A DNA stretch of 5,195 bases, from positions 1 through 5,195 of the forward strand of contig JAGREF010000288.1 in assembly GCA_020446665.1 (NCBI GenBank), given 5' to 3'. The first letter of the stretch is position 1. The number at the start of each line of letters is the position of its first letter. The stretch comes from Sphingomonadaceae bacterium. Its GTDB lineage: Bacteria; Pseudomonadota; Alphaproteobacteria; Sphingomonadales; Sphingomonadaceae. A program made the translations under genes and the position numbers. Of the stretch, positions 3,663 through 5,195 are shown one piece after another. Below the pieces are notes generated by a model. The model did no database searches, was not told where the DNA came from, and worked only from the letters and a program-made list of their open reading frames with translations.

Positions 3663-3799
3663 CCCCCTCTTCTTTAGAGGAGGGGCAGCGAGACTTGGCG
3701 GCGCGCAGCGGCGCGAAGTCGCAGCGGGGTGGTGTGGCAGGCGCGAACGACACTGCGCGTCGCCACCACCCCCAACCCCCTCCTCTGAAGAAGAGGGGG
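3663..3799. repeat. 137-bp nested palindromic element (BIME/MITE-like) between queE and valS
   Basis: The ends are 23-bp inverted repeats (3663-3685 and 3777-3799), paired at 22 positions with one T-G wobble at 3675/3787. Each arm also folds on itself: CCCCTC (3664-3669) with GAGGGG (3680-3685), and CCCCTC (3777-3782) with GAGGGG (3793-3798). Inside are further pairs: GACTT (3692-3696) with AAGTC (3716-3720), and GGGGTGGTG (3726-3734) with CACCACCCC (3764-3772). It carries no gene. From memory, the cores AGCGAGACTTGG and AGTCGCAGCGGGGTGG recur in sphingomonad intergenic regions, which suggests a dispersed repeat. The right arm starts 11 bp past the valS stop codon, so the valS transcript would run into it, and it may form the 3' end. 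On the plus strand the right hairpin is followed by CTTTTC, a terminator-like tail, but no plus-strand gene precedes it. Confidence 0.8.
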
Positions 3800-3809
3800 C
3801 TTTTCTGGC

Positions 3810-5195
3810 TTACCCCAATCGCGCCAGTGCCGCTGTCAGCCGTTCGACCTCTGCCGTGTGATGCGCGTGGTCGGCTTTCGCCTTTTCCACGGCTTCAGGC
3901 TTGGCGCGTTCGATGAAGCTGGCATTGCCCAGCCGCCCTTCGAGCGATTTGGCTTCCTTCTGGCTGGCCGCCAGTGCCTTTTCCAGACGGGCTTTCTCGG
4001 CGTCGATATCGACAATCCCTTCGAGCGGGATGATGAACACATCGCTGCCAGCGCTCACTTGCATCGCGGCACCGGCGGGTGCTGCTGCATTGGCGCGTAC
4101 TTCAAGACGAGCAATCTTCCCAAGAGCTGCGTGCCAGCGGTTCAGAAAGTTTTGCGTTCCAGGGTTTGCCATTTCCAGATATGCGACCAGACGTTGGCCC
4201 GGTGAGATACCAAGTTCGTTCTTTGCTGCTCGGATATTCCTTGTCAGCTCAATGAACCAATCAACTGCCTGCTTTGCGCCGTCGTCAATCGAGGCGCGTG
4301 GATTGGGCCACTTCGCTAAAATCAGTTCGTATTCTCGTTCACCTTGCGCGTTCCAAAGCTCTTCAGTGATGAAGGGCATGAAGGGGTGCAACATGACGTA
4401 AATCTGGTCGAGCACCCAGCCGGCAACACGCTTCGTTTCATCGGCGTGCTCGGGGTAGATAACTGCATCTTCGTTGAGCGTTGGCTTGATCAGCTCCAAA
4501 TACCAATCGCAAAATTGGCTCCAGGTGAATTGATAGATCGTGTTGGCGGCCGCGTCGAAGCGCAGATCGGCCATCGCCTTGTCCAGCGCCTCCACCGTCT
4601 GCTGCACTTCGCCGATGATCCACTGGTTCGCCGCCAGCTTCGCTTGCGGAGCGGCCAGCGTGGTGCTCGCACCAATGCCGTTGGACTGGCAAAAGCGGGT
4701 AGCGTTCCAGAGCTTGGTGGCGAAGTTGCGATAACCCTCGACCCGCTTCTCATCCATCTTGATGTCGCGGCCCTGGCTTTCCATCGCCGCCATGAAGAAG
4801 CGCAAAGCATCCGCGCCATATTGGTCGATCAGGCCGAGCGGATCGACCACATTGCCCTTGGACTTGGACATTTTCGCGCCGTCTGCTGCGCGGACGAGGC
4901 CGTGGAGATAGAGGCGCGGCCATGGGTTCTGCCCGGTCATCTTCGCGCCCTGCATCATCATGCGGGCATCCCAGAAGAACAGGATATCGAAACCGGAAAC
5001 GAGCAGATCGTTGGGGTAATGTTTGGACAAGAGGTTCGGGTTTTCGCCCCATTCCCCCGTTCGTGCTGAGCTTGTCGAAGCACCGCTTTTTTCTTCGGGC
5101 ACTGCGCCAGAAGAGGAGTGCGGCCCTTCGACCGGCTCAGGGCGAACGGGTTGGTAGGGTTGGTCCGGCCAGCCCAGCGTGGCGAAGGGCCACAG
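3810..5195 (-). CDS. valS: Valyl-tRNA synthetase, C-terminal half, with an in-frame insertion; 5' end outside window
   Basis: ValS attaches valine to tRNA-Val in the cytoplasm. The 461 visible residues are about half of the usual 860-950. The frame is open to 5195, so GTG 5102 is not the start. From the right edge the visible order is as follows. [11 protein letters not shown] (5195-5163) is the end of the conserved class Ia segment after the editing domain. An unusual insert follows, then [22 protein letters not shown] of the catalytic domain. KMSKS (4874-4860) is the second ATP-binding signature. [12 protein letters not shown] opens the anticodon-binding helical domain. The C-terminal tRNA-binding coiled coil (about 3813-4013) ends at TAA 3810-3812. 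The HIGH motif and editing domain lie outside. Two features are odd: about 40 extra residues built from an inverted REP pair (5057-5149), and lower GC at about 4141-4560 (about 52% against 60-65% on either side), including a TTA leucine codon at 4317. No frameshift is seen, and all visible motifs are intact. Confidence 0.96.
5057..5149. repeat. Inverted pair of 29-bp REP-like palindromes inside valS
   Basis: Copy A is 5057-5085. Copy B is 5121-5149 in the opposite orientation, after a 35-bp spacer. The copies match at 23 of 29 positions. Each has its own stem: GTGCT (5063-5067) with AGCAC (5079-5083) in A, and AGGGC/GCCCT in B (5123-5127 with 5139-5143). Four of the six differences are two compensatory base-pair changes (5064/5082 and 5065/5081 against their counterparts); the other two fall in the loop. 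Read in the valS frame the copies give [10 protein letters not shown] (B) and [10 protein letters not shown] (A), peptides I remember as typical translated sphingomonad repeats. Confidence 0.85.

Follow-up and report, generated by a model that had tools for sequence, protein, structure and literature searches.

Repetitive extragenic palindromes (REPs) are defined, in the excerpt used here of a 2025 survey that places an Erythrobacter among the REP-rich genomes, as seldom overlapping coding regions (PMC12306157). An earlier study, consulted in part, reported REPs inside open reading frames (ORFs) in a number of species, among them genes for tRNA synthetases in E. litoralis (printed 'lithoralis') and S. 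alaskensis (PMC3733652, 2013). According to the same excerpt, recB of two Xanthomonas carries REPs at about the same place and other genes of the category carry them at different ones, and CGTC REPs have no dedicated transposase. Rickettsia palindromic elements are described in a review, of which a portion was used (PMC10969869). Here we examine the valine--tRNA ligase gene (valS) on contig JAGREF010000288.1 of a Sphingomonadaceae bacterium (assembly GCA_020446665.1). The window, the whole stretch analysed, is 5,195 nucleotides long, and its valS carries an in-frame inverted pair of a dispersed REP-like palindrome that adds 40 residues.

We conclude, with a probability of roughly 0.7, that this loop of ValS has been entered many times by unrelated palindromic repeats and that they are tolerated as added residues predicted to be disordered. 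Because intragenic REPs were reported in 2013, in the excerpted text of PMC3733652, the kind of insertion is already known; the first-pass annotation, made from the letters of the window, fits in placing it in another alphaproteobacterial lineage, yet the placement is not new, since that text lists intragenic REPs in sphingomonad tRNA synthetases. In searches of open-licence papers, none was recognised as describing unrelated palindromes that repeatedly fill a loop of valS, trmD or glyS; the supplementary gene list of PMC3733652 may name valS. Short palindromic repeats are commonly regarded as lying between genes; in the present case several unrelated families fill one loop of an essential enzyme across species.

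The insert and its copies in the host genome

The window is a complete contig (C211 of genome G000) from a fragmented assembly of 448 contigs that is 77% complete. The contig ends 27 bases past the loop, and the window therefore holds valS in part only. This half matches the NCBIfam profile NF004349 (E 1.7e-130, 436.8 bits; below the whole-protein cut-off of 704 because the gene is partial) and structure 1gax (E 4e-64). The nearest named relatives belong, as we take it from their names, to the Erythrobacteraceae. Between LWPFATLGW and KHYPND lie 48 residues, where G001, a genome of the same genus, has 8, so that about 40 codons are extra. The REP-like inverted pair that the first-pass annotation had proposed at this place, in frame and adding about 40 residues, is therefore borne out (Table 1).

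Table 1. Features of the valS insert in the window (coordinates of the window).
Feature	Position	Strand	Basis
C-terminal half of valS (valine--tRNA ligase), truncated at contig end	3810..5195	-	461-codon open frame; NF004349; 1gax
Expanded loop, 48 codons from W to KHYPND (8 in same-genus genome)	5025..5168	-	loop comparison
Repeated unit, inverted REP-like pair plus spacer	5056..5149	.	88% identical copy at G000:C242:2240-2332
REP-like arm 1, valS reading PVRPEPVEG	5124..5149	+	0 mismatches to arm pattern
Spacer separating the arms	5083..5123	.	sequence and alignment to dispersed copy
REP-like arm 2, opposite orientation, valS reading ASTSSART	5057..5082	-	2 mismatches to arm pattern
Tail GEWGENPN, outside the dispersed copy; common, with changes, to L030, L059 and P0071	5034..5055	-	alignments

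The element has the properties of a REP in being a short imperfect palindrome with many genomic copies. The 29-bp repeat had been expected elsewhere in the host genome, and it is there: a relaxed arm pattern (at most 3 mismatches) gave 16 matches and its reversed control none. Two of the 3-mismatch matches (L028, L029) appear to be due to chance, and about a dozen further arms are present. The whole 94-bp unit has an 88% copy on contig C242, upstream of a gene that we read as hisZ-like from its ORF. This copy, together with many full-length copies in the related genome G284, indicates that two inverted REPs and their spacer are repeated as one unit, as in the REP doublets known as REPINs. The element is nearly symmetric and encodes a near-identical peptide in either orientation, and the loop folds much more stably than dinucleotide shuffles (z -5.6).

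In a ValS model built from a broad alignment, the insert is predicted to be a disordered loop, as the first reading of the sequence had anticipated, and the core to be intact. This model replaced a first one from 30 close relatives, which was poor (predicted local distance difference test, pLDDT, 64.9). Given the predicted disorder of such inserts, the ValS loop likely tolerates palindromes, and the extra residues are likely harmless.

An assembly artefact at a repeat close to a contig end has to be considered, as the repeat can cause misjoins: on L090, a contig of the metagenome-assembled genome (MAG) named Novosphingobium sp. HKST-UBA127, the hisZ-side repeat copy is fused to the C-terminal half of valS, likely by misassembly. 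In the window, however, ValS is in frame on both sides of the insert, and a similar arrangement is found in the strain genome of Q. vulgaris DSM 17792 (L059). Similar inserts and flanks also occur in L030 and in the proteins P0004 and P0071, and an artefact was therefore rejected as highly improbable.

The same ValS site in relatives

The site was compared at 229 ValS loci (L005, L006 and L030-L256) from genomes of the same GTDB family and the best 80 named relatives. These loci include 228 open frames, 210 of them distinct over 700 bases from the KMSKS codons onward, and leaving out the misjoined L090 gave 209. The sample is biased to carriers, since it is the top of similarity rankings to an insert-bearing query (about 155 of 373 genomes; best 80 of 580). 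Loops of 8-9 residues were found in 163 sequences (two by eye), loops of 11-21 residues in 6 and loops of 31-65 residues in 40; L333, found later, brings the long loops to 41 among 210 distinct sequences. The first-pass annotation had asked whether the loop is absent from sister strains and held that a loop of the same length but unrelated sequence in most relatives would speak against it. Of the 209 loops, 163 are empty, and the minority that have such loops contain other palindromes, so that the relatives do not refute it.

The long loops are palindromic almost throughout: 40 of the 41 fold more stably than dinucleotide shuffles (z < -2; median -5.5), with predicted energies of -38 to -123 kcal/mol, whereas 2 of 40 control segments of equal length further downstream in the same valS genes reach z < -2. 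Grouping by blastn (E 1e-6, at least 40 bases) gave 14 loops of CCCTCCC..GGGAGGG types, 9 of type CCTCCCC..GACGGAGGGG, 8 of type AGCGAAGTCGAG and 6 of the window's TTCGAC type. Four loops remained single, namely L030 and L104, which have TTCGAC arms by pattern, L183 of another kind, and L191, which resembles the CCCTCCC group by eye. This one ValS site is therefore occupied by no fewer than four to five repeat families that are unrelated in sequence. With unrelated palindromes at this position in relatives, the loop is likely a place where such repeats land recurrently.

Unlike repeats at one site could also stem from a single old insertion whose sequence was later replaced by other genomic palindromes, combined with repeated loss. 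L183 and L214 belong to one genus and have palindromes of different families at this site, and the tail GEWGENPN of the window is found in L030 and, changed, in L059, both of which such a history would accommodate. Yet the outgroups are all short-looped: this applies to the 26 class-level loci fetched outside the family (26/26; 241 of 289 class-level genomes matched) and to all 117 measurable sequences among 120 database ValS proteins from outside the family, of which the named ones are mostly from such genera as Azospirillum and Thalassobaculum. Losses would moreover need to be both precise and frequent, and we consider a single old insertion unlikely. In the set of 120 database proteins closest to the ValS of Q. 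vulgaris, 28 loops exceed 10 residues.

A whole-ValS profile search split at the loop and was therefore used for other insertion positions only. Palindrome-like inserts were seen there by eye in at least five genomes, at profile column 665 (L063, L101, L104, L214) and column 440 (L032); the four loci with an insert at column 665 have one at the main site as well. Outside the gene, the window contains a second inverted pair at 3663-3799, between queE and valS, with 23-bp arms that are 96% complementary and a spacing of 91 bases. By eye it is like the CCCTCCC-type elements in the valS loops of L082 and L094. An Rfam scan of the window gave no match above threshold.

Turnover of the inserts

In a tree of ValS from which the loop was excluded, the 40 carriers need 38 changes, against an average of 37 and a minimum of 32 in 200 label shuffles, and presence is thus unclustered on this tree, which is of a single gene, includes the window as a half-length row and lumps gains, losses and recombination together. 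Of 12 carriers checked, 8 have an empty tip as their closest neighbour. Two proteins both named Qipengyuania flava (P0070 and P0094) are identical at 884 of 902 positions, and one has an extra 40-residue insert; some of the differences lie near the insert, and recombination of the segment is therefore possible. Shortened in-frame forms of the Q. flava insert were also found, with 27 residues in five proteins and 19 in P0075 (named Erythrobacter aureus). At the ends of the insert, a start YxPVRPE is common to the window, L030, L059, P0004 and P0071, and a tail GxWxENPN to the window, L030, L059 and P0071.

For ten inserts, which were joined and searched against their ten genomes with matches listed down to about 4e-11, the host's own copies were sought. 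For six, the same segment recurs in the host: the window's insert, L042 (G135), L159 (G146), L054 (G239), L156 (G360) and L031 (G284). When all families are combined, the matches listed number 69 in G168, 9 in G190, 8 in G145 and 10 in G024.

PF01797, the domain of REP-associated tyrosine transposases (RAYT), was detected in 12 of 59 family genomes and in 2 of 20 carrier genomes (G137 and G091). It was not found in the window's genome (77% complete) or in 17 of the 19 other carriers, in a search limited to this domain. The RAYT transposase that accompanies REPINs was thus not detected for the window's element in this incomplete genome.

Copies inside other genes

The first-pass annotation had suggested counting copies inside genes, and six were found outside valS across the three genomes surveyed. 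For G284 we examined 16 further copies of the TTCGAC unit and four of other types, while the G146 set comprised 20 L159-type copies. Of these 40, three interrupt a gene that can be identified on either side of the element, namely trmD (L263) and glyS (L275) in G284 and glyS at a different place (L288) in G146; the copies in these two genomes are thus mostly intergenic, as is usual for REPs. A further 20 frames that span a copy showed no Pfam domain, or one located solely past the element, and do not figure in the in-gene count; some of the shorter frames fell outside this test.

The pheT gene of the window's genome contains one arm, in frame (L022/L303). Among the best 30 of 98 PheT loci, ranked by the insert-bearing query, 26 loops were measured; the site is also filled, judged by peptide, in G015 (L309), and the 24 others are empty. 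A single palindrome of the TTCGAC type was seen in the early stem-loop of a class A RNase P RNA that is cut by the contig end (L020:1480-1672 on G000:C92, arm 1501-1526; Rfam RF00010, E 1e-29, 94 bits, below the gathering score of 100). This stem-loop is presumably at the P3 position. Eight more frames spanning a copy were examined in this genome, and seven of them have no domain. The eighth, L015, has the arm between GIY-YIG and JAB domains: at L015:791-1495 (G000:C92:1081-1106), the palindrome stands between GIY-YIG (7-77) and JAB (111-219) in one 235-codon frame, and the repeat may therefore join two neighbouring genes.

Two of these genes show recurrent filling similar to that of valS. For TrmD we took the best 30 of 146 loci, ranked by an insert-bearing query. 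The distance from GGGAGM to PRG is 65-79 residues in 16 of them and 33-36 in the other 14, with additions of about 29-46 residues in a loop free of stops, and 13 of 17 inserts, including L263, have z < -2. For GlyS we picked 20 loci with an alignment break at query residues 331-344, where 33 of 115 genomes break (one at a contig edge). The insert follows LARWLVEEGIV or its equivalent in all 20, with many families by eye; 19 of 20 have z < -2, compared with 0/20 controls. G284 is empty at this GlyS site. A second variable position, before LLDFFADRL or its equivalent (L434-L437, L439, L440), has long insertions of differing length that are not palindrome-like. In the control gene queE, which adjoins valS, 72 of 149 genomes matched and none of 71 rows was more than 8 residues longer than the query, omitting a fragment in G070 and a match in G019 cut by a contig end.

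Origin and fate of the inserts

In ValS, TrmD and GlyS alike, unrelated families share a site, and nearly all long ValS loops (40/41) are palindromic and not random DNA; both would be expected if the mobilising machinery recognised some feature of the DNA, or of a single strand, where the repeats land and hit the same loops again. The start of the element shifts by several bases among carriers, however, and inspection revealed no motif across the three genes; moreover, a search limited to the RAYT-type domain detected none in 18 of 20 carriers. Targeted insertion therefore appears improbable.

Genes with a role in tRNA function (pheT, RNase P RNA, trmD and glyS twice) account for five of the six in-gene copies outside valS, and the predicted folds are very stable. 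A selected function, in which the mRNA hairpin or the disordered loop tunes the synthesis or activity of tRNA-charging and tRNA-modifying enzymes, would agree with both. Confinement to such genes is not strict, however, and was rejected, as the sixth copy joins the GIY-YIG and JAB domains of L015. The ValS insert is also absent from most relatives examined, its presence differs between the two proteins named as the same species, and neither its length nor its sequence is conserved, which makes a selected function quite improbable. A wider proposal is that certain loops in the tRNA-function genes of sphingomonads (valS, glyS, trmD, likely pheT and RNase P RNA) are fixed acceptors, to which many unrelated palindrome families are repeatedly directed or in which they are selectively retained, so that palindromes would serve the tRNA machinery as a common module that can be exchanged; we regard this as rather unlikely.

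Repeated entry and tolerance, which we prefer, could proceed as follows. Non-autonomous palindromic repeats would insert widely through trans-acting machinery, and gene-breaking copies would be lost. Those that land in one of the few permissive loops present in essential enzymes would persist if their length is a multiple of three and their frame gives a hydrophilic peptide of Pro, Glu, Ser and Gly, as such loops may accept 30-50 hydrophilic residues. Later, copies may shrink by in-frame deletion, vanish, or pass between strains by recombination.

Several observations weigh against this explanation. Neither movement nor a clean target duplication was found, the alignment of filled and empty Aurantiacibacter valS DNA being misaligned and uninformative. 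The shared flanks imply that the inserts of the window, L030, L059, P0004 and P0071 may be one event, by descent or recombination, and four inserts (L053 in G190, L095 in G145, L183 in G024, L214 in G168) have no own-genome copy among the matches listed. By the fold test, 1 of 41 long ValS loops, 4 of 17 TrmD inserts and 1 of 20 GlyS inserts are not clearly palindromic. The queE control reaches only the 72 of 149 genomes that matched, and translation of the insert is presumed from open frames only. Finally, the bias of in-gene insertions outside ValS toward tRNA function, as a raw count, is not explained by permissiveness alone.

Comparison with known systems

More widely, the data may point to a set of acceptor loops in essential genes (ValS, TrmD, GlyS). 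The natural series of empty, full and half-deleted loops, different families and apparent within-species polymorphism could be used to test the movement of repeats without a known transposase of their own, what makes loops accept repeats, and the importance, if any, of the added residues or the mRNA hairpin. Such loops can also disturb alignments and assemblies.

The inserts share features with several described elements. Like enterobacterial RU elements, they are small, mobile-like intragenic repeats that lengthen genes in frame; the RU elements have other hosts, and the abstract makes no mention of same-site recurrence (PMC2759123). In the excerpted description of REPINs and RAYTs, an inverted REP doublet with its spacer is likewise dispersed as one unit (PMC3116915), whereas here PF01797 was mostly not found in carriers, as described above. 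Rickettsia palindromic elements resemble the inserts as palindromic in-frame additions to conserved proteins, here ValS, TrmD and GlyS, but going by the part of the review consulted they are about 150 bp long and reside in intracellular hosts, against about 94 bp and strong same-site recurrence here (PMC10969869). The likeness is one of kind. In that sense the comparison with Rickettsia made in the first-pass annotation stands, but the exaptation that it proposed is less probable, as the pattern of gain and loss fits tolerance better.

In gene context there is a likeness to the GTAG/CGTC REPs, which in the excerpted text occur within ORFs as monomers and head-to-head dimers, including in tRNA synthetases (PMC3733652). 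Compared by eye with that text description only, the L183 insert would fit a CGTC REP (CGTC tag, 8-9 bp stem opening with A-T pairs, 4-5 base loop) and the window's TTCGAC element has no CGTC tag. As far as the excerpt goes, those REPs are mostly at different sites in each gene, whereas here one ValS site is refilled by unrelated families.
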